A DNA stretch of 64,000 nucleotides from Halobacterium sp. DL1 (GTDB lineage: Archaea > Halobacteriota > Halobacteria > Halobacteriales > Halobacteriaceae). The notes under the pieces were generated by a model. It had not been told where the DNA came from. It ran no database searches and saw only the letters and a list, made by a program, of their open reading frames with translations. Within the stretch, counting starts at the first letter, position 1. The number at the start of each line of letters is the position of its first letter. The stretch lies in the NCBI GenBank assembly GCA_000230955.3, contig CP007061.1:248001-312000 (forward strand), in the 5' to 3' direction. This document shows, one piece after another, positions 3,465-28,142 of the stretch. A program made the position numbers and the translations under genes.

Positions 3465-3473
3465 TATTTATAC
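3465..3473 (+). promoter_or_regulatory. TATA box for the ATPase gene
   Basis: TATTTATAC, centred about 27 nt before the ATG at 3496, which is the spacing expected for a leaderless haloarchaeal transcript. It supports 3496 as the start over in-frame upstream codons. It lies in the 242-bp divergent region between the AddB-like gene and the ATPase gene. Confidence 0.7.
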
Positions 3474-3495
3474 TATGCCGGGGTCAAGTTCCTCT

Positions 3496-8300: not shown

Positions 8301-8485
8301 TCCTCACCGTGTGGAGGCAGACAGAAGATATCGATCTTGATAAAGAGAAGGAATGGTTCGACGACGGGTTCGATAGTGAATCGTACGACCGCGTCTACGT
8401 GAACGGCGAGAGCCAGATCGCGCAGGCAGAACCCCTCGAAATTACGTTCCGAGAGAAGATGGAGGAGAGTCCCAATGTCGCGTAG
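5399..8485 (+). CDS. Adenine-specific DNA methyltransferase, type III Mod-like
   Basis: 1028 aa. The catalytic motif DPPYNTGND starts at residue 517 and the AdoMet-binding motif DFFAGSGPT at about 780. This DPPY-before-FxGxG order is the beta class of N6-adenine (or N4-cytosine) methyltransferases, which includes type III Mod. About 500 residues precede the catalytic domain, a long N-terminal extension rich in charged helices that is unusual for classical Mod. The frame overlaps the Res-like gene by 11 nt, so the two are co-translated. Roughly 6690-8340, covering the catalytic and recognition part, is visibly more AT-rich than the rest, suggesting domain replacement. Confidence 0.88.
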   Translation: MSTQTTRDGNREQLQELLRDLFQFDAADLDFGVYRILNQRRDRIEQFIEDDLLDAVDESLESLADAKRAEIEEELEEKATELRQDWDDDIFNPDGSLKDQYANLGQKDLEEYQDLWETQEDVAVAEETEARIFNDLYRFFSRYYEDGDFHTKRRISSKDSKYYVPYNGEETYFHWANNDQYYVKTGEHFTDYRFDADEWTVEFRLEEADVPQDNVKGDSRYFVLGRGDPVSTDSDEQTVTIRFQYRQITEDEADDYVEAYNEATGDDRSSFAHMTPAMRCDALEGRTLGHVEDAGTERILTAEKDDDATSTVLKSHLTRYVSENSMDYFVHKDLEKFLEGELDFFLQNEVLDVDELIKANDGSSPPVLRARTVRDIAERIISFLAQIEDFQKRLFEKKKFVVQTDYMVTLDQVPDDLYDEILENDEQLEQWREIYNTDQWDTTLKWQGKFNEAFLKNHTSVMVDTGLFDEEFKLKLLSSFDDLEEATNGVLVNGENFQALNLLSEKFNDKVSCSYIDPPYNTGNDGFLYKDNYQHSSWLSMMSDRLERVHSILPKDSSIFISNDDSENNRLNLLLNHVFGSQNFVADVIWEKVYSPKNSAKYFSEDHDYITVYSKDKETWRPNLLPRSDDQNKRYKNPDDDPRGEWKPSDLTARNPYSEGQYEVESPSGKIFSPPTGRYWSISKKKFEKLDEDNRIWWGESGGNMPHLKRFLSEVQEGMVPQTLWSYGEVGHTQRAKKELLEFVDFEKTEDVLNSVKPTSLLKRVLRIGTDDDATEWVMDFFAGSGPTAHAAIDLNREENSDRRYVLVEMGEYFDTMILPRIQRAVLSSEWKGGTPGAQDGVTHLIKYHRAESYEDALNNIMLSEPNSSQQTLVDDSIEDYTQGYMLEFESRESPSLLPEGTFDNPFNHELWIEQNGKSRELTKVDLIETFHYLIGADVRQYWRETHQDRKYVVTNCDVDTETGGEKILTVWRQTEDIDLDKEKEWFDDGFDSESYDRVYVNGESQIAQAEPLEITFREKMEESPNVA

Positions 8486-11400: not shown

Positions 11401-11678
11401 GTGAGGGGGAGCCACTCGAAGACCATCGCGTCAAGTTCTACGAGGGGATTGATTCGTACGAGAATGAGCTGGCAGAGCGAACGGGTAAAGACCACGTCTC
11501 GCTCCACTCGTACGTCATCTCCCAGACGAGCCTAAACGACCTCCGAGCTCTGTCGCGGGTGGACACTCGCGAAGAGTTCCACGATGTGGGGCTCTTCTTC
11601 CAAAACGAGGTTAGCCAAATCGTTGAAGATGTACTTGAGAGTGCGTCTGCAGAAGCCCAAGAAACGGCCGCTGAATAA
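8475..11678 (+). CDS. Type III restriction Res-like SF2 helicase
   Basis: 1067 aa. Walker A ATGSGKT is at residues 159-165 and the DExH-type box VDEGH near 263-266. Helicase motif VI-like GEGSQVIQLFGRGVRLLGK follows near residue 575-595. Near the C-terminus, FFPDFIMWL (D953) followed by IVFLEPHG (E970-P-H972) sits where EcoP15I-type Res proteins have a PD...ExK endonuclease site, but the lysine position is His. It probably translocates on DNA and cuts or loads a nuclease at unmodified sites together with the methyltransferase and the ATPase. Confidence 0.85.
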   Translation: MSRSALEKLRKRMALTAYFRDFFGVDDPNDPDSVRQYYEELDNQEEGYDDEGRSDVYRFVSFKSDSEVLTPEQLLQYDENVRMHTEALNERRSDPITLKPFQVLACLMTEAYLDRVVNNREAFLANLNEFVNEQNEEKGRIKFPEFDDSDLDKLAFWMATGSGKTLLMHINYYQYLDYVEDSDALPENILLVTPNEGLSEQHIEDLRESSIPCHHFNAETIELQGVGENPVKVIEIQKLVEEKSGEGLSVEVESFGHNNLVLVDEGHKGSRKGQTWRMLRESLAEDGFTFEYSATFGQALSKASVDVEEEYGKSILFDYSYPRFYDDGYGKDYHIVNLESEVDTDLRDRYLLANLLTYYEQIYVFNQDPETVRNTYNIKFPLLVFIGHTVNATTKSQVSKNEDRTLTDVEKSLNFMARVLRNEDNWVPKAIDRVLQKDAGLVDDDEIDPFGDALEALRETNLDGEEVYNQLLEEMFHVRASSGLDLVNIENADGEIGLRASGTDDYFGVINIGGDRVFLDRIEGAYDHISVESDQFKKSLFRSINKRDSPINVLMGSRKFIEGWDSWRVSTMGLMNFGRGEGSQVIQLFGRGVRLLGKDRTLKRSSELEVDPPSNLSLLERLNVFGVRADYMAQFRDYLSDEGIDTDPRDVVEIETRTQDHFQNQGLLVVRPQVESEYVDEVNLELEGTGDITPEIDIMPQVGILSSRDESANEFDENEPRTIPEEYLDLLDWHEIYRKVWQFRKEKGYRNLVCEKKTLQEILSNEYYTLYCPQSMLEVEQFDDLEQVQQIAVMILRKYIKEFYSDRQSSWEQSQLSYVPMDEELTREQGNFFEKYTLSVKTSAEGFLSELQDAVEDDSLYTNADGKPNRVHFDRHLYLPLIAEETNVDEEDIDYSPPPLNKGEKQFVTNLKSYFESNDGQKVLDSWEVYLLRNQSRGKGVGLLSDGNRFFPDFIMWLQNEDAQHIVFLEPHGMVREGEPLEDHRVKFYEGIDSYENELAERTGKDHVSLHSYVISQTSLNDLRALSRVDTREEFHDVGLFFQNEVSQIVEDVLESASAEAQETAAE

Positions 11679-12665: not shown

Positions 12666-13085
12666 ATGCAAGGATCAGATACCGACTCCTCACAAGAAAA
12701 GCCGAAAACCACTGCACGGAATACTGTTGGAATGAAGCTCCCTCTCACCATCGCAGCCCTCTCCCTCATCGCAGTTGAACCAGCGCTCGCTCAACAAACG
12801 TCACAGAGCGCGGTATGCAGCGCTGACAATCTCCCTGGAATGATTGAGGGCTTCTTTCAGCTAACCACTGGGCTGGGCATTGTCGGTCTCGCGGTCGTCT
12901 GGCAAGCTGACTCCCTCATCGAGATGTTCACGCTCAATCCAGACCAGAAGAAGGGACTCAAGCGCCACAAGCGCTCGGCAATGAAGTCCGCTGTGGTTCT
13001 CGTTATCCTCGGCCCGCTGTACACCGTCGCCGGATCGATGATGGGCCTCCCACTGGCGCAGTGTGTTGACCTCGTCCCCTGGTAA
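12666..13085 (+). CDS. Small exported membrane protein, pilin-like (VirB2-like position)
   Basis: 139 aa from ATG 12666, or 117 aa from ATG 12732. From MKLPLTIAALSLIAVEPALAQQ it has a signal peptide with a likely AxA-type cleavage site. Two hydrophobic segments follow (LTTGLGIVGLAVVWQ and SAVVLVILGPLYTVAGSMMG) separated by a basic loop KKGLKRHKR. Small size, signal peptide and two TM helices match VirB2/TrbC-type pilins, and it opens the transfer gene set. The assignment rests on topology and context only. Two cysteines, CSADN and AQCVD, could form a disulfide. Confidence 0.6.
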   Translation: MQGSDTDSSQEKPKTTARNTVGMKLPLTIAALSLIAVEPALAQQTSQSAVCSADNLPGMIEGFFQLTTGLGIVGLAVVWQADSLIEMFTLNPDQKKGLKRHKRSAMKSAVVLVILGPLYTVAGSMMGLPLAQCVDLVPW

Positions 13086-13106
13086 GCAGTTTACTCCCCT
13101 CTCATC

Positions 13107-14852
13107 GTGAGACCCCTACAACAACGCGAACTAACCGTACTCATCGCAGCCCTCTGCGTGACTAGCCTAGTCACGGGTATCGTCTCGGCGAATCCGCCGC
13201 GACCAGGTACGGAAGATAACGGACTCACTGAGAACGAGTCAGCGACACTCTGGTCTCGCGATGCGGACAATTACATCAGTCAAGAGGAGTACCGCCAGCG
13301 CTACGGTGACGAGCGGACGTCAATCCACCAGCTTGCGAACGGGACGGATATTACGTTCAAACGCCCGCCCGAGACAGCCGCGACGTGGACTCGAAACGAT
13401 TTCACGGACCTCGAAGTCGGTGGGTCGGATACGTCCGTCCATCCACCCCACGCGTCCCTTGAGGACGGTGTATTCATCGAGGACGCTCACGCAACAGTGT
13501 TCGCAGTTCAGCCGTCAACTCGGGGCCACCTCGAATCCGGTGAAACGCCACTGTACATCGCCCCGAATGGCACGATGCGTGGGTTCGTCGATTACCGCGT
13601 TCGTATCCCAAACGGGAGCTCTTCGGGGAACAGGACTATCCAGTGGTCGCTCACGGATCACGAGATCGAGGAAATTCGGTTGCAAAAGGACGGGGAGACC
13701 ATCGCGAGGACCGATGGGTCGCACACGCCGGCTATCGACTACCAGATCGACGACGATTGGAGCGCAACCCTCTCCCTCGAAGCAGAGATTCACGTCCGGC
13801 TGAAGAAGACGATCAGGACCGACGTTGTCAACGGGACCAATGTTGATGTCGTCTACCGTGAGGAGACGCGAAACGTCTCGGACTCAATTGACGTTGAGGT
13901 CTACGACCTCTCCGCGTACCCCTATTACGCCGAATATCCGAACGAGGATTCCGGCGTTGCCATCTTCCAGTCCCGTCCCTGGCAGGGGTACACGCTTACT
14001 GAGGACGGTGACGCGAGAGTTCGTGGTGTCTGGCGATTCTACACTGCCCGAGACACCAATTGGGACGCGCTTGTGCGGTCCAACCGTACCGCTAGTACCG
14101 AAGTAGAGTCCGACGCGATCCCCGTGTTCGTCCACGCGTATCCCTCCCGGATTGGACCGCGGGCAGAACCTGTTCGGGACGGCCCGGAGATTGTCGACAC
14201 GTGGGGGACTGACCGACCCTCTCCGGTGGGAACCATCGGCAAGAACGTCAACATCGAGGTCATAAATCAGTCCTACACGACGACGTATGGTGTCGCCGTT
14301 CGAGCTGAGGCTATCGATCGGGAAGCCCTCCACGTTGCAGGTATCGTTCGAGGAGTCAACGCGTCGATCGTCGAGCCTGCCGCGGGTTCTGAACGACAGC
14401 TCCGTCGTAGTAACCTTACGGCGGAGGTTCTTCGACAGAATCAGTCACAGGCCACGCTCCGAATTGAGCTCCGTGATAACGAAACTGGCGCACCTATCAT
14501 CCTCGACGACAGCAGTCGCTGGTATCCGATTGGGGGAACCGCCCGCAATGGATACATCACCATCGCCGACCAGCAAGTCGAGACCAATGCGTCCGGGGTA
14601 GCCATTGTAACCGTCGACGATCCTGGGATCTACACAGCTCGATATCACCCAGGCTCGTGGCTTGGGCATAACCCAGCCTACGTGAGTGATACGGCGACTG
14701 CCCGTTGGCATCCACTCGGAACCATCGACGGCTGGTTCGCGTTCCTATTCGAGATTTTCTGGCAGTTCATCCCCTTCTTCGTGATGTTCTACGCTGGACA
14801 TCGTCTCCTCCGAATGCTCGGTCCAGAAGACCTCTTCCAACGAGATCCATGA
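13107..14852 (+). CDS. Large exported surface protein with C-terminal membrane anchor
   Basis: 581 aa, GTG start. An N-terminal signal (TVLIAALCVTSLVTGIVSA) is followed by about 510 residues with many N-x-S/T sequons and beta-rich patterns. A C-terminal TM helix, WFAFLFEIFWQFIPFFVMFYAG, ends in a short basic cytoplasmic tail. It is likely displayed on the cell surface or forms part of the mating-channel exterior. The ectodomain resembles haloarchaeal Ig-like or beta-sandwich surface proteins, without a family I can name. The stop overlaps the next gene by ATGA. Confidence 0.7.
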   Translation: MRPLQQRELTVLIAALCVTSLVTGIVSANPPRPGTEDNGLTENESATLWSRDADNYISQEEYRQRYGDERTSIHQLANGTDITFKRPPETAATWTRNDFTDLEVGGSDTSVHPPHASLEDGVFIEDAHATVFAVQPSTRGHLESGETPLYIAPNGTMRGFVDYRVRIPNGSSSGNRTIQWSLTDHEIEEIRLQKDGETIARTDGSHTPAIDYQIDDDWSATLSLEAEIHVRLKKTIRTDVVNGTNVDVVYREETRNVSDSIDVEVYDLSAYPYYAEYPNEDSGVAIFQSRPWQGYTLTEDGDARVRGVWRFYTARDTNWDALVRSNRTASTEVESDAIPVFVHAYPSRIGPRAEPVRDGPEIVDTWGTDRPSPVGTIGKNVNIEVINQSYTTTYGVAVRAEAIDREALHVAGIVRGVNASIVEPAAGSERQLRRSNLTAEVLRQNQSQATLRIELRDNETGAPIILDDSSRWYPIGGTARNGYITIADQQVETNASGVAIVTVDDPGIYTARYHPGSWLGHNPAYVSDTATARWHPLGTIDGWFAFLFEIFWQFIPFFVMFYAGHRLLRMLGPEDLFQRDP

Positions 14853-15688
14853 TACGAAACAACCCAACCATCAGCAGACGAAACGTCCTCCGAACAGCCG
14901 CAGGTGCAGCGCTTGTAAGCGTTGCAGGCTGTCTGAACACCGATGGAGACTCTGGCACGCCCGGTGACGGAACTGGCTCTCCAGACGGGCAAGGCCAACT
15001 GCAACGAGTCGCTGTCGAAGGGACCACACTTGTTGTCGAACTCTCCGCTGAAGCTGATGTCGATCAGGTCAACCTCATCCAGCCGAACGGAGAGCTTTTC
15101 GGAACCCGTGACGTGGCCGCAGGGGCCCAACGGGTCTCGTTCGAGATTGGAACCGCATACGAGCCTGGTGAGTATCGGGTAGTCGCACTGAAAGGCGAGG
15201 AGACGGTCACAGAGAGTACGACGGATATCGTACCGGAGATTCAGATTCAGGACGTTGGACTCTACCGAAATAATCCTGACAAGCCGTGGGACGAGGTCTA
15301 CGGTGAGAGCAAAACTGATTCGAAGAAGAACGGAGAGGCATTTGTTACCGTTCAGAACTCCGGAAGTGGACCGGATACGGTCGTCGAGATGCGATTTTCT
15401 GGAGACGTCCCTAACCCTGTCGAAGACCCCCGTGGAAGTGGAATCTACGAGAAAGAGAGCGTCGTAGTTTCGGCAGGTGAGACAGCCGACCTCTTCAGCG
15501 ACTCGTTCCCGTTTGGTTCAGAAATCGGGGGCGAGGGAATGGGCTGTTCGACTGACGGCAATAGTGGACAGTTCACCATCATACTAGAGACTCGAGTTGC
15601 AGGTCAGCAAGTCACGAAGACGTACAACGTAGAATACACCGGCGCTGACGAGATGCAAAACTGCGAAATCACGATCAGTGAGGCTTGA
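14849..15688 (+). CDS. Tat-secreted lipoprotein of the transfer region
   Basis: 279 aa. The N-terminus ISRRNVLRTAAGAALVSVAGC carries a twin-arginine motif and a lipobox ending in Cys, so it is exported folded and lipid-anchored outside. A Gly/Asp/Ser-rich linker and a beta-rich domain follow. The ATG overlaps the previous stop (ATGA); an open frame extends upstream to 14705, but that would bury the Tat signal. It is probably an extracytoplasmic part of the transfer apparatus. No VirB7/VirB9 similarity is claimed. Confidence 0.75.
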   Translation: MIRNNPTISRRNVLRTAAGAALVSVAGCLNTDGDSGTPGDGTGSPDGQGQLQRVAVEGTTLVVELSAEADVDQVNLIQPNGELFGTRDVAAGAQRVSFEIGTAYEPGEYRVVALKGEETVTESTTDIVPEIQIQDVGLYRNNPDKPWDEVYGESKTDSKKNGEAFVTVQNSGSGPDTVVEMRFSGDVPNPVEDPRGSGIYEKESVVVSAGETADLFSDSFPFGSEIGGEGMGCSTDGNSGQFTIILETRVAGQQVTKTYNVEYTGADEMQNCEITISEA

Positions 15689-15690
15689 CC

Positions 15691-16803
15691 ATGGTTGACC
15701 TCATCGACGTTGTGTTGGAGGGGTTCAAAGACGTCGTTGACTGGGTTGTCGGCCTTTTCATGGATGGTCTAACAACAGGATACAATACTCTCACCGAGGA
15801 GATGTTCGGGACTCCTACCCCTCAGACAAACGGACCATTCGTTTTCGGGGAGCCGACGAATGCGCCCTGGTCAGCGATTCAAGATGCACTCGTCGGTGGC
15901 GAGATAATGCTCATCGCGTTGCTTCTACTCGTAATGAGCGTACAAGGACGTCACACCATTCAAATATTCAACATCGGCAGCGCATACGAGGCGAGGAAGA
16001 CCAAGAAAACCGCGTGGGTTGGTGCGTTTCTGATAATCGTCTGGTATTGGGTCGGTGTCCTTTCGCTCTACATTGTCGATGGTTTCTCAATTGCTCTGAT
16101 GCCCGGTATGGCTTCGCTTCGAAATGCTATGTTGGGGTTCCTCAGTGTAACACTGACCAACCCGGGGTTATCGCTGTTATTTGCGCTAATCGGAGGTATC
16201 TCGATGTGGGCATTGGAGGCTCTGTTTTACATCCGTGAGATTCTCCTCTACGTATATCTCTACGGAATGCCGATTGCGATTGCTATCGGATATGGAAATA
16301 TCCCCGTTGTGTCTGATATTGCGATGGGATTCTGTAGGCGGTTTGTCCCCCTTGCCGTCCTTCCGCTGCCAGCCGCGATAGTGTTCAAAGGATATGATCT
16401 GATATACAGCGGCGGAACCCTCACACCACAGACTGCATTCCTCAAGTTCCTGGTCGCTGCCTCACTCCCTCTGGTTGCGCTATACATCACTTGGAAGACG
16501 TTCAAGTACGCGACTCCGCTGACAGCCAGGGTTGTCGGAGGTGCAACGAAAAGTGCTGCTCTCATCGGCGGTGTCGCGGCTGGCGCCTACGTTGGCGGCG
16601 CGGGTGTGGCGACGACAGCAGCACGGTGGGGACCGAAAGCAGCAGCTGGCCAAGCCATCGCACAGAAAGCTGCTGCTCGAGGCGGACACGGAACTGAGGA
16701 TGGAGCCCCATCGTACCGTCGAACCGAGAATGACCCCGGTGGGGCCACTGCAGACGCATCGAGTGACAAACGCGGAATGGAGTACGATCGAGGTATTCAC
16801 TAA
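15691..16803 (+). CDS. Polytopic membrane protein, VirB6/TrbL-like
   Basis: 370 aa. About six or seven hydrophobic segments between residues 70 and 270 (for example IMLIALLLLVMSVQG, AFLIIVWYWVGVLSLYIV, LPLVALYITWKTF), then a soluble Gly/Ala-rich and charged C-terminal tail. This topology and position just before VirB4 components match VirB6/TrbL channel subunits. I took ATG 15691, 2 nt after the lipoprotein stop, rather than a TTG at 15685. The last stop base is shared with the next ATG. Membrane location is certain; the VirB6 label is inferred. Confidence 0.65.
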   Translation: MVDLIDVVLEGFKDVVDWVVGLFMDGLTTGYNTLTEEMFGTPTPQTNGPFVFGEPTNAPWSAIQDALVGGEIMLIALLLLVMSVQGRHTIQIFNIGSAYEARKTKKTAWVGAFLIIVWYWVGVLSLYIVDGFSIALMPGMASLRNAMLGFLSVTLTNPGLSLLFALIGGISMWALEALFYIREILLYVYLYGMPIAIAIGYGNIPVVSDIAMGFCRRFVPLAVLPLPAAIVFKGYDLIYSGGTLTPQTAFLKFLVAASLPLVALYITWKTFKYATPLTARVVGGATKSAALIGGVAAGAYVGGAGVATTAARWGPKAAAGQAIAQKAAARGGHGTEDGAPSYRRTENDPGGATADASSDKRGMEYDRGIH

Positions 16804-17924
16804 TGTCTACAGATCCAGACGCGGCAGCACGGCGTATCATGAACCAGTTTGGCGAGGAGAGTCGCATCCCTTACCTCAACATCGAAGAAGGGGACGTCGG
16901 CGTGCTCATCGCCTTCCCGATCATCGGGCTCTTCATCGCGAGTCTCACCGGAGTCGAATCGCTTGCCCTCCCGTTCGTGGCTGGCGGGCTCGGGTTCGGT
17001 GTTGCGGTCATCTACGTCTCTCCCGACCACCTGAACGCGTGGACATGGACGAAGGACGTCTATCGATACGCCAAGCGTCCGCGAGTCACATTCAGTGCCC
17101 CAGAAGCAGCCAACAGTACCACGAACGAGACAGAGCGAAACAAGGGCGGGCTCGCAAACTACACGCCATTCAAACCGGACGAGCGAACGCAGGATCTGAC
17201 GAACATCAAGCGGGCGTGGCCCGGTGCTGGCGCGATCCAACGGACGGACGGCACGATGGAGGCTTTCATCGAGATCGACCCGGGGAACATGGACTTCGGG
17301 ATGTCCAACGACTGGGCCCAGCTTCAGAACGCGGGTGAAGACTTCGCCAACAAGGAACTCGACTCGAAGCTCAAATTCCACGCAACGACCCGTTCATTCC
17401 CGGTCGAGCAAATCACAGAGACTATCGAAGAACGGCTTACCGACGAAGACGTCACGGAGAATCCGATTTTCCGGGAACTCCTCGAGGAATATCGAGAAAC
17501 ACGCCCCAGAGAGATGCGTGACCGAGGCATCCAACAGATGCGGTACTACCTTGGCGTCGAGGTTACTCCGCTCGAAGTCTACGACAGATACCGAGACGAA
17601 GGCACACCTGCGGAGAAACTGACCAAGTTCCCCGTCATCGGGTTCCTGTTCAATCCCTTCGTGACGCGACGTGAGGACCTCACCGATGTCGAACGTCGCG
17701 CTCAGATGTTCGAGAAGCTCGACAGCCGCGTCAACGACGTTCGCGCTGAGTTCATCCAGCAGGCGTCTGGCTGGTCTGCTCGCCGGCTCAGTACGGTCGA
17801 ACTGTTCGTTCTGAATATGGACTTCTGGAATGGACGAGAGCACGACTACGACGAAGCAGACCGCGTCATTCGCGAGCAACCGATCATCGGCCACTCACGC
17901 CGGGAGGATGAGACCAATGCGTAA
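16803..17924 (+). CDS. VirB3/VirB4 N-terminal-like protein
   Basis: 373 aa. Two closely spaced TM helices near residues 30-75 (VGVLIAFPIIGLFIASLTG and LPFVAGGLGFGVAVIYV) resemble PrgI/VirB3. A soluble region follows that matches the N-terminal half of VirB4/TraC-type ATPases (AWPGAGAIQRTDGTMEAFIE, DWAQLQNAGEDF). Gram-positive and archaeal systems often carry such PrgI-VirB4 pieces. It overlaps the ATPase gene by 8 nt (ATGCGTAA), so the two polypeptides are probably made together and act as one VirB4 unit at the membrane. No P-loop is present in this piece. Confidence 0.72.
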   Translation: MSTDPDAAARRIMNQFGEESRIPYLNIEEGDVGVLIAFPIIGLFIASLTGVESLALPFVAGGLGFGVAVIYVSPDHLNAWTWTKDVYRYAKRPRVTFSAPEAANSTTNETERNKGGLANYTPFKPDERTQDLTNIKRAWPGAGAIQRTDGTMEAFIEIDPGNMDFGMSNDWAQLQNAGEDFANKELDSKLKFHATTRSFPVEQITETIEERLTDEDVTENPIFRELLEEYRETRPREMRDRGIQQMRYYLGVEVTPLEVYDRYRDEGTPAEKLTKFPVIGFLFNPFVTRREDLTDVERRAQMFEKLDSRVNDVRAEFIQQASGWSARRLSTVELFVLNMDFWNGREHDYDEADRVIREQPIIGHSRREDETNA

Positions 17925-20124
17925 CGTCGCTCTCCAAGCGAGCGGCGGGCCTCTCGCCCAGCTTACAGAGTGGCTACTGAATCCAACGTCACCCGAAGGC
18001 GTAGCGGTTTACTTCCTGTTGGTTGTGGCCCTCGGAATCGTCGGTAAACTCCTCTGGACCCGTCACACTGCCGACGACGAACCAGAAGTCGATTTCTCAG
18101 ACGTCCTCGACGAGGAGACACTCGAAGAGGGTCACGCAGAAGGCCAGCTCCTCGACGACATTTCCGAGTCTCACAAGACGGTGACTGCGCCAGCAGCCAT
18201 CGAGTGGGAGACACGAGCCGCACGCGTTGGCGAGCAGTGGACGACGACGCTCTACATCGCTGACTACGCCGACTACCCGAACGATGGCTATCTGAGCGAC
18301 CTTTTCGAGCTGACCGACGTCGAATTCGACCTCACAGCGCACATCACGCCGAAGAATCAGCAGCGAGCGCGGAACGAACTGCAAGACATCGCTGACGACC
18401 TTCAGGTCGACGCCGATCTAGAACAGAGTGTCCGCAGTGCGTACCTCCAGGAGCGAGCAAACGAGGCCGCTGCGACGTACAAGGCTGTCGAGAGCGGCGC
18501 AAACGTCTTCGACCAGGGGATGTTCGTCACGGTTCGTGCCGACAACAAGGACGACCTCAGGGACTCGGTTCAGAAGGTCAAGAGCGCCCTTCGCGACGAC
18601 CCGGCAAACCTCACGCCAAAGACCGCTATCTGTCGGCAGGACCTCGCGCTGCAGTCGGCCGCTCCCATCGGAGACAACGTGTTCGGCCGCGAATCTATCT
18701 CTCTCGGAGGAGCCGTTGGCGCACTGCTCTCGTCACCCCATAACGCGACTATCCTCGAAGAGGGCGGGGTCGAGTTCGGTATCCACAAGGACAACCAGAG
18801 CCCGGTCGTCATCGACCCGTTCGCCCGTGACAACGGATATGCGATGTTCACCGTCGGCGATACTGGGTCTGGGAAATCGTTCGGCTCGAAACAGAACTTC
18901 ATCCGCTCGATCGAGCAGAGCAAGGACCGCATCGGCATCATCCTCGAACCACTCAACAACTGGGCAGGCGTCTCTGAAGCACTCGGTGCGAAACGTATCA
19001 CCGTCGGTGGGACCCTCGGTCTGAATCCCTTGGAGATTCGCCAGACACCCGAGCACGTCCAGCGGGCAATGGGTGAGGACGCGAGCCCGTTCAACGAGAA
19101 GCTCGACGACGCGATGAGCTTCCTGACGAACTTCTTCGCACTGCGGGGTATCTCGCTTGGCGACCGGAGGACGACACTCGAGCTCGGCCTCAAGCGCGCC
19201 TACAAGCGCAACGACATCACCGACGATATCTCGACGCACAGTAACCCCAGCCCGACCATCCGGGATATGATGGACGTCTTCGAGGACATGGTCGACGACC
19301 CCGAGGAGTTCGTCGTTCGTTCCGACGAAGAATCCGGGAAGATTCGCGAGGACGCGACGTGGCTTCTGGACCAGCTTCGCCCCTTCGAGGAGGAGGGTCG
19401 CCACGCCAATCTTGGGAAGTCCTCAGAATTCGATATTCGCAACGAGAAGGTCATCTACCTCGATCTTGCACAACAGGAGGGCAGTGTCGACAGCAGTACA
19501 GCGCTGACGATGCAGTTGCTCATCTCACTCGTGTACGAGCGGGCGAAAGAGACGGACAAGGAGGTCGTGTTCGTCATCGACGAAGCGCGCTATATCATGC
19601 AGGACGCTGCGAGTCTGGCGTTCCTCGAAACGGTGTTTCGCCATCACCGCCACCATGACCTCTCGATCCGGCTCGTCACCCAGACCGTCGACGAGTTCTT
19701 CGAGCACGCCGAGTCCGAAGCCATCCTCGACCAGTGTGCCGTCAAGCAGTTCCATCGGCTGGACGGGATGGACGACCAATGGGCCAACGAGTTCGGTCTG
19801 AACTACGCCCAGATGCGTTACGTGCAGGACGCGGTTCCCGGCAACGAGGACGCTGGGTTCTCCGAGGCGCTCGTCGGCGTCGACGGTGAGTGGCGCGGCA
19901 TCAAGGTTGAGGCGATGCCCAAGGAGAAGCAAGTCATCGACTTCGACCCCACCGAGCGGCGGCGTTCCTCGCTCCCCGGCGCTGGCGAGCAGGCTGTCGA
20001 TACCGACATACAGGAGTTCCGTGAGGAGCTGGAACAGCAAGCGTCGAACGAAGAGTCGAAAGAGACGGAAGCCGTCTCTGCAAAACCTGACGGCGGTTCG
20101 ATGGAGGGGGCAGACAATGCGTGA
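17917..20124 (+). CDS. VirB4/TraC-like conjugation ATPase
   Basis: 735 aa from ATG 17917, which overlaps the upstream stop. One TM helix lies near residues 25-45 (VAVYFLLVVALGIVGKLLW). The ATPase core has Walker A GDTGSGKSFGSKQ near 313-325 and Walker B VVFVIDEARYIM near 550-561, followed by a HHRHHDLSIRLVTQTVDEFF segment typical of VirB4/HerA families. It powers pilus or channel assembly at the membrane. The C-terminal 70 residues are polar and acidic. This is the most secure family call in the transfer region. Confidence 0.9.
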   Translation: MRNVALQASGGPLAQLTEWLLNPTSPEGVAVYFLLVVALGIVGKLLWTRHTADDEPEVDFSDVLDEETLEEGHAEGQLLDDISESHKTVTAPAAIEWETRAARVGEQWTTTLYIADYADYPNDGYLSDLFELTDVEFDLTAHITPKNQQRARNELQDIADDLQVDADLEQSVRSAYLQERANEAAATYKAVESGANVFDQGMFVTVRADNKDDLRDSVQKVKSALRDDPANLTPKTAICRQDLALQSAAPIGDNVFGRESISLGGAVGALLSSPHNATILEEGGVEFGIHKDNQSPVVIDPFARDNGYAMFTVGDTGSGKSFGSKQNFIRSIEQSKDRIGIILEPLNNWAGVSEALGAKRITVGGTLGLNPLEIRQTPEHVQRAMGEDASPFNEKLDDAMSFLTNFFALRGISLGDRRTTLELGLKRAYKRNDITDDISTHSNPSPTIRDMMDVFEDMVDDPEEFVVRSDEESGKIREDATWLLDQLRPFEEEGRHANLGKSSEFDIRNEKVIYLDLAQQEGSVDSSTALTMQLLISLVYERAKETDKEVVFVIDEARYIMQDAASLAFLETVFRHHRHHDLSIRLVTQTVDEFFEHAESEAILDQCAVKQFHRLDGMDDQWANEFGLNYAQMRYVQDAVPGNEDAGFSEALVGVDGEWRGIKVEAMPKEKQVIDFDPTERRRSSLPGAGEQAVDTDIQEFREELEQQASNEESKETEAVSAKPDGGSMEGADNA

Positions 20125-23100
20125 GTATCTCCGAGTCACGCCAACATCAGAAGGCCTCGATCCCGAGGGAATCCCTCGAGTCCTTGAAAGCCTGCACAAA
20201 CTGACGACGGCGGAGTCAACTGGACTCGCGCAGAAGCTGAACCCACTCCACAGTAAGACACCGCTCCGGTTCGAGTTTCTTGCACTATCTGAGGGAGCGG
20301 ACGATCCTGTCGAATTCTTCTACGGCGCCGACGAGCATCTCGACACACTCGAAAAACGCCTTCGTTCGATCTATCCCGAGACGTTCGACATCGAACGCGT
20401 CGACGTCGACGTCGCTTCACGGCTCATTCAGCCAGTCGAATTCACACCAGCAGAGTTCATTGAATACTACGAAGCAGGGCAGCTACAGTACGAATTTAGT
20501 ACCGACGAGCAGCACGAGCTTGGCAGCGAGGAGCGTGACCAAGACCAGACACCAACGACCGAAGCATCCTCCCTTGCAGATGGTGGCGCCACAGTCGACT
20601 CGTCCCATGGCCACTTCGTCGAGATTGGGGAGACGGCGCTTGAGCTTGGATCTCCAAATGCAGTTCCGGACGAGGAGCCACTGACGACACTCGAAAAGCC
20701 AACCGAGATGGCCGAGGGAACGATACTCGCTCGGCCCACCGTCGACGCCGTCTCGCCAGTCGGCGTCCGCTGGTCTGGTTCAGCCACCAGAAAGAAAGAC
20801 TGGATGACGTCGTTGACGCCCTTCGCATTCGGGGACGAAGACGACGGATTGGCTGCTATCGACCAGCCCGGTGCGACTCTCGCGTCACTCGTCGACCACC
20901 TGATGGAGGCGGCGTCACCAGTAGCGTTTCAGGTTGTGTTCCAGCGACGGACAAGCTGGCAGTCCGACGCCGAGATCAGAAAAGAAGATCTTGTCGACGG
21001 ACGGGACACCTTCTTCCAGGAGATCGTTGGCTCCTTCCTCGAGGTCGAAGATCAGCGGGCCAATCACGACGAGAAACAGCTCAGCGAGTCAGTCGCCAAG
21101 CGTATCGAGTATATCGACGCGAAGAATCCCAAGCGGTCATTCACTGCCAACATCAGAGCAGTCGGCGTTCCGACCTGTGACGAAGCCCGCGACGACCTCG
21201 CGGCCCAGATGAACTCGCTTCGTCCCGTGTTCGACCCGATCGACGGCCCCTATTACGAAGTCGAGGGAGAACGACTCCGTGCTGGCGGCTTTCGAGAAAA
21301 GACGAAGGAGAAGAATGCTCAGACAGCCCTCCAGCAGTTACTTGACCGAGAGATTACGGCGGGCCGAGGCAAGACCCGACCGGATTTCGTCCTCAGCGGG
21401 GCGGAACTCGCGAACTTTGTGCTCGTCCCATCCTCCGAGCAACTCACAGTAGAGGGAACACGCGGCACCCGCGCTGAACAGCAAAGCCGGAACCCACTTC
21501 CGTGGCCCAATCCAGACCTGGTTCAACAGTTCCAAGAGGGAATGGCGATCGGGTATGCACTCGATGAGAACGGATCTCCCCAACCGGACCCGATTCGGAT
21601 TCCACCGAATCTCCTAACGACGCACTACGGCCGGTTCGCCTCGACCGGCGGCGGGAAATCGAAGGCGATCATCAACGACGCGCTATCCCTCCGGGAAACG
21701 ACCGGCGGACCCGTCGTGATCGTCGATCCGAAAGGCGACGGCATGTGCGCGAATTACCTTCGCTGCCACTACGAGCGCTTCAACGGGGTGGACGACGTCT
21801 ACCAGTTCCGCGTCCCAGAGACAGTTCCTGCGTTCTCCTTCTTCGACATCCGGCCTGCGCTCAAGGCCGGACGGAACCGTGAAGACGCGATTCAGGACAA
21901 GGTCGACCACTTCCACGACATCATGCGGATGGTCATGGGCCGCGAACAGTACGGACAGGCATTCGTCGCGAACGAGATCCTCAGCTACCTAATCAAGGCG
22001 CTCTTCGACGAGGAATACGGTAGTGACGCCTTCGGCCTCGATGAGCTCTTTGCGGCTGCACTCCAGATGCAACGCGAGCGGACAGTCCCTCCGGTCGCTG
22101 CTGAGAACCAAAATGTCGAGGAGTCGCTGACGCGCCACTTCGAGAAGGATGACCGTCGATTCCAGGTGTCGATGGACGCCGTCGGAAACCGTCTCGACAA
22201 ACTCAGAGAAGACGCGCACCTGCGGCGTATCTTTAGCCACGTTCCGGAACAGGGCGATGACGGCGAATACACCGACAACCGATTCGACTTCCGCGAGTTC
22301 CTCGACGAAGATGCCACGATCCTGTTCGACCTGGGTGATCTCCGTCCGGAGGCACAGCGAGCAATCACACTTCTCCTGTTGAGTAACCTCTGGGACGCGG
22401 TGCAGGTGCGTCGACGTGATGGGAAGACAGACTACGAGAACCTCACCAACCTCATCATCGAGGAGGCAGCTCCCGTCGCCTCAACGAAACTCGTTTCCGA
22501 GCAGCTGCTTCCCCAAGGTCGGTCCTTTGGCCTGAGCATGGGACTGGTGATGCAGTTTCCCGAGCAAGTCAGGAATCGAAGCGAGCGCGCCTACAACGAG
22601 GTCCTCAACAACATCAAGACGAAGCTCATCGGGAACATCTCCATCGAGCGCGACCTCGCCGAGTCACTGGCCCACGAAGACTTGAGTCCGACTGACCTTC
22701 GGAATCGGATCAACACGCTCCCCAGCGGGGAATGGATCGCACAACTCCCGAGCCCGTCATTCGGGGAGACGGGTCCAGCCCCGTTCTCGGTGAAGCCCCT
22801 CCCGATAGCGTCGGGGCATCCAGAAAGCGACGAGCCGCTCTCTGTCGAACAGGAGGACCACTTCGAGACCGTGGCCCTCCCCCGACTGTCCGAGCGTACA
22901 CAGACCCAGTACGGGCTTGCTGAGACCACTAGCGAATCAGCGGCCGGAGAGAACGAGGGATGGGGAAGCAGACCGACGGATGAACAGTCGACATCCACAG
23001 AATCGGCTAGCTCTGTGGACACGACACAGTCGTCGTTCATCGGACAGGCAACCAGTGATTCAGCAGCCGACGAAGAAAACGAAGGAAACGAAGGGGAAGA

Positions 23101-23935
23101 CAGGGACACCACCAACCCGCTCTTTGGAGATCCTGAGTCAGAAGAGCTAGTCGGTGAAGAAGAGGAGACAGCTGTCAACGAGAACGGATTGTCACCAGTA
23201 CAGGCTGGTGGAGTAACCGTCCCAGATGACGAGCTTCGACGGCGCGGGCTTACTCACGACGACATCCGCTTCCTGACCCGCATCCTCGACGTAATGAATC
23301 GTGACGCACCGAATCATGGACTCTTGGATTCAATGAGTGCGTTCAAGAACGACTTTGACGACCTGGACGTGCACCGGCTCGTCGAGCAAGACCTGCTGGA
23401 GGAAGGACGAGCGTGCGGTCGGAAGTACTACACCGTACTCCCGGCAGGGCGAGAACTCCTCGGTCAGAAGCTCAAGGTCGGCCCTGGTCAGGGAGATGTC
23501 GGCGAGAAGACGCCGCACAAGGTTGGTGTGAAGCTGCTCGAACTGTGGTTAGACTCCCGCGACGACGTCGCAAAGGTCGAATCCTACTATGAGTACGATC
23601 AGGAGACGGTGTTCGATGTTGTCGGTCTCGATGCTGACGGGGATCTCGTGTGGGTCGGTGAAGCTGAACTCGCGAGTAATAACAAACACGCGCCGGTCGA
23701 CGACTACGACAAGCAGAGTGCGGTGGATGCGAACGCTGTCTGGGCGTTCAACAGACGCGAGACAGCCGTCGAAGTGCTGGACTGTCTCTCTGAGGCTGAT
23801 CGAATTGAGAGCAGTGTGAATGGGCGTGCAGCCCGGTCGTTCTCGGACATTCGAGAGGCCGTTGAATCGTTCGATGCAGCTGGGCTGACGACGATTCGGA
23901 GCTTCAATAAACTCGACCAGGAGTTCAATTCATGA
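20117..23935 (+). CDS. VirD4/HerA-like coupling ATPase with C-terminal wHTH and nuclease-like domain
   Basis: 1272 aa. The ATPase has Walker A FASTGGGKSKAI near residue 510 and VVIVDPKGDGM shortly after. A Walker B-like LTNLIIEEAAP lies near 778 and LSMGLVMQFPEQV follows. It should pull DNA to the channel. Residues 930-1040 are a low-complexity acidic/Ser linker. A wHTH-like segment (HDDIRFLTRILDVM to YYTVLPAGRELL) and a last domain around 1140-1230 follow, with VFDVVGLDADGDLVWVGEAE resembling the D...ExK core of restriction-like nucleases, though Lys is replaced. ATG 20117 overlaps the VirB4 stop. Confidence 0.8.
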   Translation: MREYLRVTPTSEGLDPEGIPRVLESLHKLTTAESTGLAQKLNPLHSKTPLRFEFLALSEGADDPVEFFYGADEHLDTLEKRLRSIYPETFDIERVDVDVASRLIQPVEFTPAEFIEYYEAGQLQYEFSTDEQHELGSEERDQDQTPTTEASSLADGGATVDSSHGHFVEIGETALELGSPNAVPDEEPLTTLEKPTEMAEGTILARPTVDAVSPVGVRWSGSATRKKDWMTSLTPFAFGDEDDGLAAIDQPGATLASLVDHLMEAASPVAFQVVFQRRTSWQSDAEIRKEDLVDGRDTFFQEIVGSFLEVEDQRANHDEKQLSESVAKRIEYIDAKNPKRSFTANIRAVGVPTCDEARDDLAAQMNSLRPVFDPIDGPYYEVEGERLRAGGFREKTKEKNAQTALQQLLDREITAGRGKTRPDFVLSGAELANFVLVPSSEQLTVEGTRGTRAEQQSRNPLPWPNPDLVQQFQEGMAIGYALDENGSPQPDPIRIPPNLLTTHYGRFASTGGGKSKAIINDALSLRETTGGPVVIVDPKGDGMCANYLRCHYERFNGVDDVYQFRVPETVPAFSFFDIRPALKAGRNREDAIQDKVDHFHDIMRMVMGREQYGQAFVANEILSYLIKALFDEEYGSDAFGLDELFAAALQMQRERTVPPVAAENQNVEESLTRHFEKDDRRFQVSMDAVGNRLDKLREDAHLRRIFSHVPEQGDDGEYTDNRFDFREFLDEDATILFDLGDLRPEAQRAITLLLLSNLWDAVQVRRRDGKTDYENLTNLIIEEAAPVASTKLVSEQLLPQGRSFGLSMGLVMQFPEQVRNRSERAYNEVLNNIKTKLIGNISIERDLAESLAHEDLSPTDLRNRINTLPSGEWIAQLPSPSFGETGPAPFSVKPLPIASGHPESDEPLSVEQEDHFETVALPRLSERTQTQYGLAETTSESAAGENEGWGSRPTDEQSTSTESASSVDTTQSSFIGQATSDSAADEENEGNEGEDRDTTNPLFGDPESEELVGEEEETAVNENGLSPVQAGGVTVPDDELRRRGLTHDDIRFLTRILDVMNRDAPNHGLLDSMSAFKNDFDDLDVHRLVEQDLLEEGRACGRKYYTVLPAGRELLGQKLKVGPGQGDVGEKTPHKVGVKLLELWLDSRDDVAKVESYYEYDQETVFDVVGLDADGDLVWVGEAELASNNKHAPVDDYDKQSAVDANAVWAFNRRETAVEVLDCLSEADRIESSVNGRAARSFSDIREAVESFDAAGLTTIRSFNKLDQEFNS

Positions 23936-24816
23936 GTTGGCGACAAGCGACTCGCGAAGAGATCTACCGGTACTACACCGAGGAGTTTCCCTCATACCGT
24001 GACGAACTTCCGTCGTTCATCACAGCGAAGGGGCCGAAACAGTACGCACTCGCGTTTCGGGAACCCCACCCGGTACGGAAAGACGGAATCCCAGACAAGG
24101 ACTTCATTCGGCGAGATACGTGGCAGACGAACACCGCTGGTGAGCAGACCACTGCAGCGTTTCAGGAGTTCGACGACATCCTCGAGTTCATCCGGCATCC
24201 AGCACGGAATGATCCACTCGGTCGGAGTAACTTTGCGCTCGCAGATCCCGACCTGCTTGACAAACCAGACCCGTGTCCTGATGCAGTCTATTACGCCCTT
24301 GATCACTGGGAACGGCCGTGGGTCCTCCTCGTCGACATCGACGCGAAAGATATCGCCAGGAACCGAGCAGCGGAAACGGTCTTGGAGGGCGTCGCCGACC
24401 GGGACGACGATGCGCTCCTCAACGCCGCAGGAATCCTCGACGCCGCTCCCGAGGGGTATCCGTATGCCTTTGAGGATATCGAACGGGCCATCGAGTACGG
24501 CTTCGAGGTGCGAGATATTTTCGAGGACGACTTCAACGCCGAAGAGACGATGGTGGTGTACAGCGGTCAGGGCGTTCACGTCTACCTCCTCGATACAGAC
24601 CCCGATCATCGGTACGATGCCAAGAGTCGAGAAGTGCTGAACGACCTTCTGCAGGATACCTACGAGATCCCCATCGACCCAGTGGTTACCGCCGACCGTC
24701 GTCGAGTCGCCCGACTCCCGTACTCGTTGCACGCTGATGTCTGTAGCATCGTCACGCCAATTGAGAGTCCGACCTTCGACGTTCAGTCTGCGACACCGGA
24801 GGTGCTCAAGCGATGA
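23932..24816 (+). CDS. PriS-like archaeal primase catalytic subunit
   Basis: 294 aa. VLLVDIDAKD near residue 132-141 carries the DxD catalytic pair. VVYSGQGVHVYLLD near 206-219 matches the SGxGxHV motif of archaeo-eukaryotic primases. RRRVARLPYSLHADVCSIV near 255-273 matches the C-terminal R-LP-SLH motif of PriS. It would synthesise primers, probably for complementary-strand synthesis after DNA transfer. It is linked by ATGA overlaps to the coupling ATPase before it and the PriL-like gene after it. It is shorter than chromosomal PriS (about 380 aa in haloarchaea) and has a divergent N-terminus. Confidence 0.85.
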   Translation: MSWRQATREEIYRYYTEEFPSYRDELPSFITAKGPKQYALAFREPHPVRKDGIPDKDFIRRDTWQTNTAGEQTTAAFQEFDDILEFIRHPARNDPLGRSNFALADPDLLDKPDPCPDAVYYALDHWERPWVLLVDIDAKDIARNRAAETVLEGVADRDDDALLNAAGILDAAPEGYPYAFEDIERAIEYGFEVRDIFEDDFNAEETMVVYSGQGVHVYLLDTDPDHRYDAKSREVLNDLLQDTYEIPIDPVVTADRRRVARLPYSLHADVCSIVTPIESPTFDVQSATPEVLKR

Positions 24817-26324
24817 CCCGGTCGACGCCTGTCGAGGACGAGAGTACCGCCTATCGCGTTGCGACGCTCCCACTCGAATACGGCACGGCACGCATCAATC
24901 AGCTGTTCACGCGCGGCTACAACCGCTATATCGTCGACGATGAAGACCAACCGGAAGATTTGTTGAACGATCTCGAGCGATTCGGGACGGCGGCGTTCAA
25001 AGAAGACGTCAGGGCCAACGCCGCAGAGGAACCCTTCGTCGACGAACCTGGAACACTCGCCGTTCTCGCGACGTTGAGCGCAGTCTGCGTCAAGGCGCAC
25101 CCGAAGTTCGAGCACGCCCCACCGCGAACGGTGCAGGTCCTCTACGATATTCGCGAGCTCTACGTCAACAATCTCGCCTCTCTCCTTCGAGAATTCGGTG
25201 ACGGGAGTCTCCAACAGGATATCGCAGAGGTGCTGTACGCGAAAGACCCTGGAGAGGACGGACCACACCCCGGTCGCGTTTGTACGGGGATCAAAGAGAT
25301 GCCCGAGTTCGGTGACGGATTGTATCTCGAAATCCCGATGGCCGCAGCATCGAGGAAGTGCCTCGTTCACGCCGATACTGAGACCGGAGAAGCCGGGGAA
25401 CTGCTCACTCGCGTCAAGAACAACTGCCTCTATGTGCCCGTCGGTGATTTCGACACGAAGTATCGCGAGTACGCCAGACGTGCGTTCAAGAAGCTCCTGC
25501 GGGTCCAGGAGGAGAACCTCTCTGAAGACCAGCTGACGTGGCTAACGACGAATGAGTCGGCCATCACAGAGCGTATCGATCGCTTCATCGAGACGGGACA
25601 CCACGAACGAATCTGGAGAGATTGGAACCCCGGTGAACGGACCATCCGTGTGCTCCGGGACGCGATTCGAGACGCTCCAGACGAGGTCGTCTCACTAGGG
25701 GAGTTCCACTCGGCGAAGGAGCTGTTTGAAGCAGTGGAGGCGTACGATCCAGAAGCGGGCTGGAAGCGAGACGTGTGTAATCGCATCTCAAGTCCTCGAA
25801 GTCTCGGGAATCTCCTTGCATCTCAACGCGATCACCGGAATCTCACTATCCGACAGCACGGAAATACGAACCACTACCGGATTCAGGAGTCTTCGCGTGG
25901 CGTCCAGCCCCTCGACGTCGAGGCAATCGAAGACCTATTCGAACTCCCCTGTATGGCGAATATGGCCGAACGCCTCCACGAGAAAAAGCCAGTCCGAAAG
26001 GACCTGTACAACTTCGCCCGGATGGTGATGTGGCTTCCCCAGTACCAGGATAGTGAACTCGAAACGATTGTCACAGACCTCAAGGACGTCTTCTCGCGAT
26101 GGCCTTGGTACGACGAGCAGGTCACCGATTACCAGATTCGCTACGAGTTCTCGAATACGATTTGGGGCGACACCCCGCTTCCGATGAACTGCGACAACGA
26201 CGATATACAGCGGTACTGCATCGGTCAGGAGCAGTGCCCCTACTCGATCTGGGGGAGCCTTCCATTCCCGGATGAGATGTATGACCAATTGGATAAAGAC
26301 GGCTCTACGGGGGAAGAATTCTAA
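24813..26324 (+). CDS. PriL-like primase large subunit
   Basis: 503 aa. The C-terminal third has the PriL-CTD pattern: a Cys in LFELPCMANMAERL (about 379), helical VRKDLYNFARMVMWLP, then YDEQVTDYQIRYEF, and three further Cys in PMNCDNDD and RYCIGQEQC. These four cysteines are placed as in the 4Fe-4S cluster of archaeal and eukaryotic primase large subunits. The N-terminal half, with LPLEYGTARINQL and long helices, is consistent with PriL-NTD. It pairs with the PriS-like protein, and the middle (about 240-340) contains an inserted helical region. The stop is followed by a 123-bp gap with a TATA box for the next gene. Confidence 0.78.
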   Translation: MTRSTPVEDESTAYRVATLPLEYGTARINQLFTRGYNRYIVDDEDQPEDLLNDLERFGTAAFKEDVRANAAEEPFVDEPGTLAVLATLSAVCVKAHPKFEHAPPRTVQVLYDIRELYVNNLASLLREFGDGSLQQDIAEVLYAKDPGEDGPHPGRVCTGIKEMPEFGDGLYLEIPMAAASRKCLVHADTETGEAGELLTRVKNNCLYVPVGDFDTKYREYARRAFKKLLRVQEENLSEDQLTWLTTNESAITERIDRFIETGHHERIWRDWNPGERTIRVLRDAIRDAPDEVVSLGEFHSAKELFEAVEAYDPEAGWKRDVCNRISSPRSLGNLLASQRDHRNLTIRQHGNTNHYRIQESSRGVQPLDVEAIEDLFELPCMANMAERLHEKKPVRKDLYNFARMVMWLPQYQDSELETIVTDLKDVFSRWPWYDEQVTDYQIRYEFSNTIWGDTPLPMNCDNDDIQRYCIGQEQCPYSIWGSLPFPDEMYDQLDKDGSTGEEF

Positions 26325-26447: not shown

Positions 26448-28142
26448 GTGACACACGAGGTGCCAATATTTCGTCGGGGCGACTCTTTTTACACTGTGAC
26501 GAGTTGGAGTGAGCAGGGTATGACAGGATCTGAATTCCTCGATGTCGGCAATCTATTTCTAGCAGAACCCATTCAGATTTCGAAAGGGCAAGTCAAAGTG
26601 AATGCGTCACGTTGGCCTGAAGCTAAAACCATTTCTGTAACGCATCACGAGGACGGCGCTCTCACTAATTCTTTCATCGCGGAGGTCACGACCATATCGA
26701 ACGGGAAAATCCGAGCAGAGAAAGTTTCACCCCAGGGACAGCGTTTGGTTCTCCCTGGCGATGAACTCTCTGTAACAATCGACACCATCACATCAAGGGA
26801 TACGCTTGTTGCAGACGTCTCTGCAGCAGCCAATATCAACTGCGTTTACCCCATATCTCATCGCAATCTAGGTGCTGCCTTACAGGTTCAGATTTTTCAG
26901 ATTTCTAACTCAACTGCCTATGCAGATGTGGTATCAATACTTGACCCAGGTGTTAATGTCAACGACCGCGTTGATGTTCAACTTACACGTGGATCTTCGA
27001 TTGCTGAGTTTATTGACGATAATCTTGCACCATTTGGGTGCAGGCTGGACAGGGAACCTACAGCGGGTGGCCCTGGAGTCGCTCGTGTGACTGGATATTC
27101 AACCCAAGGTACCGAATGTGATCTGGAGGAAACGGTGTGCCAGCTTCAAATCGGTGATCGATACGAAATGATGGTCAACCGAGGGATAAGTGAGGCCATT
27201 CCTTCATGGGATGAGGCTATCGGAGTAGAATCCGTAGCTTTGAATGAACCGTCAGCTGCTTCCACAACAGCGACGGTTGAGCTTACGGAAGTAGAAGATT
27301 CTGTTACTGGAAAAGTTACCGAGTACCAGAATGTGCCGGAGGTAGGCACTTACCATCGGCTTCCGGTAGAACGTAGCCAAAAGACTGTATTTCTCGATGG
27401 AATCCCAATCCAATTAGTGTCTAAATCGGAGGTCACGGGAGAAGCAACAATCGAAGTGACTGGCGGTGAGGTGCCGCGTGCTGGCCGAATCACCGAATAC
27501 CACGGTCTTCCTGACGTAGGGACCTCCAAAATGGTAACAATGCGTCAGGGACAGGATTTCGTGATTATTGACGGCGTTCCAATTGAACTGGAATCACAAT
27601 CTGAAATCAATGGGAAAGTATCTCTAGAAATCGTTGAAGGAGGCCTTCCGTTCATCGGACAGATTACTGAGTATCACGGACTACCAGATGTCGGAGAGAT
27701 AATTGACTGTCGTGTCGATCGTGGGACATCGCAAGTTACTATCGATGGTGTCCCGGTCCAGTTCTCACCACCAAGCTTAGTTGGAGAATTAAAATCTCGA
27801 CTTAGAGTCCTTGATGTAGGTCCCCCAGTACGGGCAGAGCTAATCGATTACCCCACCCTTCAGGAAGGAGAAACTGTTAGGGCAAAAGTAGATAGTAATA
27901 ATTTCACCGTTGCTCATGCCGACAAAGGAAATTACAGAATAGACCTAGTTGAACAGGCAAAGAAAGCGGCCGATGTAAGAGTGAGGCTAGTTTCCGTGAC
28001 CGCGAAACAAATCCTCGGCAAAGTGAATGGATACCTGAGTCTGGGTTCAACTGGTCAAAACATCGGTCGAAGTCACACTGGCAATTCACCGTTCACATCA
28101 GGAGATTCGAAGAACAAAGAGATCACCGGAAAGAAACTATAG
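26448..28142 (+). CDS. Beta-barrel repeat protein (TRAM/OB-like repeats)
   Basis: 564 aa from GTG 26448; ATG 26520 is an alternative. It consists of repeated beta-rich units. The three clearest, at codons near 27307, 27487 and 27661, are about 58-60 residues apart and share G-x-ITEYHGLPDVG, then (V/L)-x(8-12)-IDGVPI. Units with GVARVTGY resemble TRAM domains, small nucleic-acid-binding barrels common in haloarchaea. No catalytic motif, signal peptide or TM segment is visible. It stands alone with its own TATA box. A nucleic-acid-binding or scaffold role is a guess. Composition is more AT-rich than the transfer operon. Confidence 0.6.
   Translation: MTHEVPIFRRGDSFYTVTSWSEQGMTGSEFLDVGNLFLAEPIQISKGQVKVNASRWPEAKTISVTHHEDGALTNSFIAEVTTISNGKIRAEKVSPQGQRLVLPGDELSVTIDTITSRDTLVADVSAAANINCVYPISHRNLGAALQVQIFQISNSTAYADVVSILDPGVNVNDRVDVQLTRGSSIAEFIDDNLAPFGCRLDREPTAGGPGVARVTGYSTQGTECDLEETVCQLQIGDRYEMMVNRGISEAIPSWDEAIGVESVALNEPSAASTTATVELTEVEDSVTGKVTEYQNVPEVGTYHRLPVERSQKTVFLDGIPIQLVSKSEVTGEATIEVTGGEVPRAGRITEYHGLPDVGTSKMVTMRQGQDFVIIDGVPIELESQSEINGKVSLEIVEGGLPFIGQITEYHGLPDVGEIIDCRVDRGTSQVTIDGVPVQFSPPSLVGELKSRLRVLDVGPPVRAELIDYPTLQEGETVRAKVDSNNFTVAHADKGNYRIDLVEQAKKAADVRVRLVSVTAKQILGKVNGYLSLGSTGQNIGRSHTGNSPFTSGDSKNKEITGKKL

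Follow-up and report, generated by a model that had tools for sequence, protein, structure and literature searches.

A divergent PriS–PriL-type primase pair tied to the coupling protein VirD4: a putative transfer primase of haloarchaeal plasmids

What does a two-subunit primase of archaeal type do at the end of a conjugation operon? The question is raised by a 64,000-nucleotide stretch of Halobacterium sp. DL1 (contig CP007061.1, positions 248,001 to 312,000; the window, in what follows), which belongs to the second replicon (C2, 316 kb), a haloarchaeal megaplasmid. Here a rightward operon for a type IV secretion system (T4SS), with all its genes on the + strand, spans window positions 12666-26324 and ends in the order VirB4, VirD4, PriS-like, PriL-like. 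An earlier note on this DNA had read the last two genes as a primase pair dedicated to transfer, and both open reading frames are present where it placed them (23932..24816, 294 aa, and 24813..26324, 503 aa). Our results indicate that a divergent primase of the PriS–PriL type is probably a component of the conjugation apparatus that haloarchaeal plasmids encode, as a putative transfer primase that is tied to VirD4 and would convert transferred single-stranded DNA (ssDNA). Protein identity, operon context and the swapping of the pair together with the coupling protein all back the reading of a transfer-linked, two-subunit primase of archaeal type.

Judged by its sequence, the first gene is a divergent PriS and not an orthologue of the chromosomal one. 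Its product matches PF01896 with E=3.7e-5 (24.6 bits, just under the cut-off of 26.8) and TIGR00335 with E=1.2e-8, where its 34.8 bits do not reach the equivalog cut-off of 143.5 bits. A profile of 26 homologues matches archaeal PriS structures (1g71, E=2e-8), and motifs I, II and III keep their order in the alignment. In hhalign the family aligns with 30 haloarchaeal chromosomal PriS at P=1e-6, compared with 0.04 for the highest-scoring of ten decoys. The DxD, SGxGxHV and R-LP-SLH motifs that had been reported for this protein were all located, and the catalytic Asp and the SxH align with archaeal PriS. More specifically, motif I is DID (D135 and D137, predicted catalytic; 24334..24342), aligned to DIDAKD of P. 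furiosus PriS; motif II is SGQGVH (residues 211-216; 24562..24579), in which G212, G214 and H216 are invariant; and D249 of 'PID' (24676..24678) is by alignment with P. furiosus PriS the third predicted catalytic Asp. It is followed by the stretch RVARLPYSLH with the R-x-P-x-SLH motif at residues 261-267. D135, D137, H216 and D249 are invariant across all 26 homologues. The primase genes are under purifying selection (ratio of nonsynonymous to synonymous substitution rates 0.04-0.17), and the divergence of PriS is correlated with that of PriL (r=0.97). Gene overlap and correlated divergence point, indirectly, to a PriS–PriL heterodimer that would synthesize primers. Short PriS-like proteins (~280 aa) also occur in classes other than Halobacteria (e.g. 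G544:C1:223511-223990) and are nearer to this family than to chromosomal PriS.

The pair is bound to the gene for the VirD4/TraG-like coupling ATPase (1270 aa; 20123..23935), which is syntenic in homologous loci and has DUF87/HerA and CedD-like matches. The ATG of PriS at 23932 and the VirD4 stop codon (23933-23935) overlap in the sequence ATGA, as do the ATG of PriL at 24813 and the stop codon of PriS (24814-24816). The joining of the pair to the coupling ATPase gene, which the earlier note had described, recurs in homologous loci: the 4-nt overlap is found between VirD4 and PriS in 50/67 and between PriS and PriL in 43/67, and many of the loci without it are accounted for by mechanical start choices. 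These 67 loci were retrieved by a separate PriS search, independent of the PriL family. VirD4 lies directly upstream in 65 of them, PriL directly downstream in 65, and VirB4 is in reach in 60, so that the proposed survey of VirB4/VirD4 operons places the pair in such operons. It also forms the operon's end, as claimed, since the next gene (26448) is not kept in place in homologous loci.

NF038197, the family of the PriL-like protein, is present in 104 of 392 haloarchaeal genomes (48 of 86 genera) and on 90 plasmid records; phage records hold no relative of it. The pair is spread over many genera, mostly on plasmids or small contigs, and the primase family was detected in Haloferax volcanii as well. 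When T4SS operons were sampled by VirB6 alone (n=56), a primase of the archaeo-eukaryotic superfamily (AEP) followed VirD4 directly in 27 of the 29 operons with VirD4, and an AEP was present in 10 of the 27 without it (Fisher p=1e-5 without correction and 0.002 once the set was thinned at 80% VirB4 identity). Of the two VirD4-bearing operons left over, one carries a transposase in this position and the other encodes a 673-aa protein with a weak match. PrimPol genes lie directly behind VirB4 in the VirD4-less operons L170, L186-L189, L191, L193 and L195-L197, mostly on chromosome-size contigs; the remaining VirD4-less operons of this sample have no primase. In L056-L065, PriS–PriL is combined with another T4SS backbone, which is very divergent.

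The primase in this slot is not always the same. In 21 VirD4-bearing operons it holds a 367-473-aa PrimPol of the NrS-1 type instead of PriS–PriL. The window's own replicon carries such a system: L152 (C2:147000-166999) is a second complete T4SS operon, in which the PrimPol gene follows that of a VirD4 with a C-terminal Pox_D5 winged helix. The L152 PrimPol matches phage NrS-1 primase structures (E=5e-36) and PF22763 (E=8e-32). The two kinds of VirD4 differ at their ends. A C-terminal domain that we call type A (23180..23935 in the window; association 47/0 versus 0/21) is restricted to VirD4s with PriS–PriL downstream and to fusion proteins described below; PrimPol-linked VirD4s lack it and, where checked, end in the Pox_D5 winged helix. 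Primase type equals VirD4 C-terminal type in 68/68 loci (47 PriS–PriL, 21 PrimPol). In the VirD4 tree each primase type forms one clade with full support (100*), while supported branches of the VirB4 tree force at least five exchanges of primase type. One such break can be seen at the DNA level between the loci L173 and L176, which are 92% identical up to the VirD4 start, then 73%, and then share nothing. Their VirB4 proteins are 97% and other pore proteins 90-99% identical, the VirD4s 60%, and the primases are of different kinds. Related pore operons have exchanged VirD4 and primase as one cassette on at least five occasions. The matched types, the two trees and the L173/L176 break therefore show VirD4 and primase travelling together, which is the strongest argument for a primase that serves transfer.

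Several results weigh against a role in transfer. Corrected by the tree, joint presence of VirD4 and primase rests on five independent pairs, 3.3 concordant and 0.2 discordant, and is not significant (p=0.25); the match of primase type and C-terminal type, corrected for relatedness, holds in 5/5 independent pairs (p=0.06). Ten T4SS loci have a PrimPol and no VirD4, and three PriL-like genes (L068, L069, L071) are orphans with no PriS detected. The loci L068-L071 hold NF038197 relatives, 33-35% identical where measured, with neither a PriS partner nor a T4SS detected; the one in L068 adjoins an Orc1/Cdc6 gene. It could be argued that the pair is the plasmid's own primase for vegetative replication, expressed from the transfer operon, and that its link with VirD4 reflects an ancestral replication–transfer unit. 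Replication is the usual role of AEPs encoded by mobile genetic elements (PMC5862659), PolpTN2 is believed to act as the primase in plasmid replication (PMC3973330), and the orphan gene near Orc1/Cdc6 would fit the same role. We nevertheless consider this explanation unlikely. The pair swaps with VirD4 and not with a replication gene, and its overlap with the VirD4 gene is conserved. Several Orc1/Cdc6 initiators are encoded on the window's replicon itself, and the cell also has a chromosomal PriS and PriL.

The second protein is very probably PriL-like. It has nine Cys, and only C380, C460, C469 and C475 are invariant among 24 divergent members of the family, down to 30% identity. They lie in PriL spacing within a C-terminal helical domain, a predicted Fe-S domain of the PriL type (25950..26237; Cys codons at 25950, 26190, 26217 and 26235). 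In hhalign this domain aligns with that of chromosomal PriL at P=4.8e-5, with the first Cys in register; the best decoy reaches 0.056, and chromosomal PriL is the sole match among 11 targets. The four Cys for a predicted Fe-S cluster, which the earlier note had seen, are confirmed in this way. Failure of the catalytic Asp or of the Cys to align with PriS/PriL had been named as grounds for rejecting the reading, and in profile comparison both align. An AlphaFold2 model of the PriL-like protein (mean predicted local distance difference test score, pLDDT, 80) shows a helical domain at the N-terminus and a winged-helix-like insert; its Cys domain is modelled with less confidence. The insert lies between the N-terminal and the Fe-S domain (25680..25883) and is supported by the secondary structure of the model and by winged-helix matches in the fold search. 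Among 350,542 PDB chains, PriL N-terminal domains are third (2dla_C) and fifth (1zt2_B) in that search, with probabilities of 0.95 for 1zt2_B and 0.85 for 2dla_C, template modelling scores to target of 0.53 and 0.46, and E of 0.2-0.3; several eukaryotic PriL are within the top 25.

Not all of the evidence on protein identity points the same way. The window protein has no match to PF04104, a PDB profile search with it gave no match, no hit of the fold search reached E<0.1, and the model of the PriS-like partner, made from a shallow alignment, has a pLDDT of 44. Together with the winged-helix-like insert, the results for the second protein could mean that it is an unrelated Fe-S/winged-helix adaptor of the PriS-like enzyme, with likeness to PriL confined to a short Cys-rich stretch. 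This is improbable, as chromosomal PriL is the only one of the hhalign targets to be matched, with Cys in register, PriL N-terminal domains come so high in the fold search, and the protein partners a PriS. Moreover, a divergent member (33% identity to the window protein) matches PF04104 itself at E=3.6e-4, below the cut-off.

A different kind of connection between PriL and VirD4 is found in four genomes. In proteins of 758-768 aa, the type-A C-terminal domain of VirD4 (E down to 1e-63) is fused to an N-terminal domain of PriL type (E down to 1e-49). They are encoded in L073 (8268-11944), L074, L075 and L076 (6236-9764), and no T4SS genes were found around these loci. In two of the loci the fusion gene overlaps a gene for a Cys-rich, zinc-ribbon-like protein of 419-457 aa; we considered an AEP for this partner, and profile comparison ruled it out. 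The fusions suggest that the PriL-type N-terminal and the VirD4 C-terminal domains work together, possibly in physical contact.

VirB4, VirB6 and VirD4, which together mark a conjugative T4SS, are all present in the window operon. Relaxases are another matter: 90/90 related plasmids are typed as non-mobilizable, and no relaxase domain is found among the window proteins scanned. Other archaeal conjugation systems likewise have no recognised relaxase (PMC9905601). A PD-(D/E)XK nuclease in the VirD4 C-terminal domains, as a substitute for the relaxase, was considered from motifs seen by eye; neither PDB profile searches nor a comparison of the two C-terminal types supported it. Transfer of ssDNA has been argued from pilus width, the pili of archaeal relatives being too narrow for double-stranded DNA (dsDNA) (PMC9905601), and a suggestion of dsDNA transfer in archaeal conjugation is cited in PMC6563490. 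A primase tied to VirD4 fits the transfer of a single strand, after which priming would occur de novo in the recipient, or the donor would resynthesize the strand it had lost. The pair's context suggests that it is dedicated to transfer. The predicted heterodimer would dock on the VirD4 C-terminal domain; one plasmid strand would leave the donor single-stranded; primers would be laid either in the recipient on the strand received or in the donor on the strand kept behind; and a host polymerase would then restore the double-stranded plasmid. The direction, the docking and a possible transfer of the primase protein itself are what we infer from the gene arrangement. That the T4SS with its VirD4 and primase imports or repairs DNA in a Ced-like manner, the primase acting on incoming or damaged DNA rather than in plasmid export, is very improbable: archaeal T4SS relatives do import DNA (PMC9905601), PMC12019639 reports an archaeal replicative primase active in double-strand break repair, and no relaxase is recognised here, but plasmids or small contigs carry most of the copies, in many genera, and pore and cassette recombine in the fashion of mobile elements. 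As a tentative extension of a transfer role, which we find somewhat doubtful, the VirD4 motor and a C-terminal primase dock may form one exchangeable machine in relaxase-less archaeal conjugation, which either AEP could serve; on the same joint reading, the PriL–VirD4 fusions and the Pox_D5 winged helix on PrimPol-linked VirD4s may be traces of docking.

How does the pair compare with known primases? In bacteria, priming of the transferred strand or replacement synthesis by TraC (RP4) and Sog (ColIb-P9) is established. The haloarchaeal pair shares with them the proposed priming of the transferred strand; it is unlike them in having no Toprim/DnaG Pfam match, an unrelated fold, two predicted subunits and an archaeal origin. 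SogL is itself transferred (PMC8406263). The earlier note's contrast with 'unrelated' primases of bacterial conjugative plasmids is too general as worded, because RSF1010-type RepB'/MobA proteins contain an AEP (PMC5862659) and an AEP of the NrS-1 type serves in sister T4SS operons of haloarchaea. This AEP, of the kind known from phage NrS-1, takes the place of the pair behind VirD4 in paralogous operons and differs from the window PriS in AEP family, in being a single subunit and in showing no profile similarity to it. With chromosomal archaeal PriS–PriL (PF01896/PF04104, TIGR00335) the pair shares the catalytic triad, SGxGxH, R-x-P-x-SLH, the four-Cys PriL domain and the two-gene form. It differs in its score (34.8 versus 143.5 bits), its short PriS of 294 aa, the winged-helix-like insert in PriL and its overlapping genes on plasmids, whereas the host's own PriS and PriL genes are located apart from each other on the chromosome. 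The nearest precedent for PriS–PriL on a mobile element is PolpTN2 of the Thermococcus plasmid pTN2, which is also plasmid-borne and combines PriS-like and PriL-like parts with four Cys (PMC3973330). In contrast to our pair it is a single polypeptide, the His of motif II is replaced by Gln (PMC5862659), and conjugation is not mentioned in PMC3973330.

The remaining genes of the operon are those of the pore. The first conserved one encodes a candidate pilin, VirB2/TrbC-like (12666..13085; weak PF04956 match, E=0.008; syntenic in ~45 loci). It is followed by genes that synteny marks as conserved in the operon, for a 581-aa membrane protein (13107..14852) and a predicted lipoprotein (14705..15688, lipobox judged by eye), and by the gene for a VirB6/TrbL-like channel protein (15685..16803; PF19590 TrbL_3, E=4e-138). 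A conserved 373-aa T4SS protein in VirB3-like position (16803..17924; synteny, with no Pfam family) and the VirB4 ATPase (17830..20124; NF045975, E=8e-39; TIGR00929, E=6e-12) complete the set. Directly after the operon, 26448-28142 encodes a 564-aa protein with a weak TRAM match, and L078, from another genome, has a near-identical copy next to a truncated PriL gene. Directly upstream, in 289-11678, is a Type III restriction-modification pair (methyltransferase 5399-8485, restriction enzyme 8475-11678), preceded by an AAA/DUF4143 ATPase and a PD-(D/E)XK protein on the opposite strand.

Public annotation calls the two primase genes 'DNA primase' and 'primase-associated protein', or hypothetical, and the NCBIfam entry NF038197, to which the window gene belongs (E=1e-256), gives by its name no function, PriL relation, Fe-S Cys or T4SS link. 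In the open-access literature we found no description of the pair, of the PriL nature of the second protein, of the T4SS link or of the swap, most subscription papers lying outside this coverage. According to PMC5862659, PriL-type subunits are found almost exclusively in chromosomal primases; in contrast, the plasmid-borne PriL-type subunit reported here is widespread. That primases of two kinds are linked to VirD4, each in the slot behind it, is independent genetic evidence for an intermediate that is single-stranded. A primase that is locked to VirD4 and exchangeable for one of another kind suggests that haloarchaea with such plasmids transfer ssDNA and carry their own enzyme to restore dsDNA, and a deletable gene pair in culturable haloarchaea bears directly on the question of ssDNA versus dsDNA transfer.

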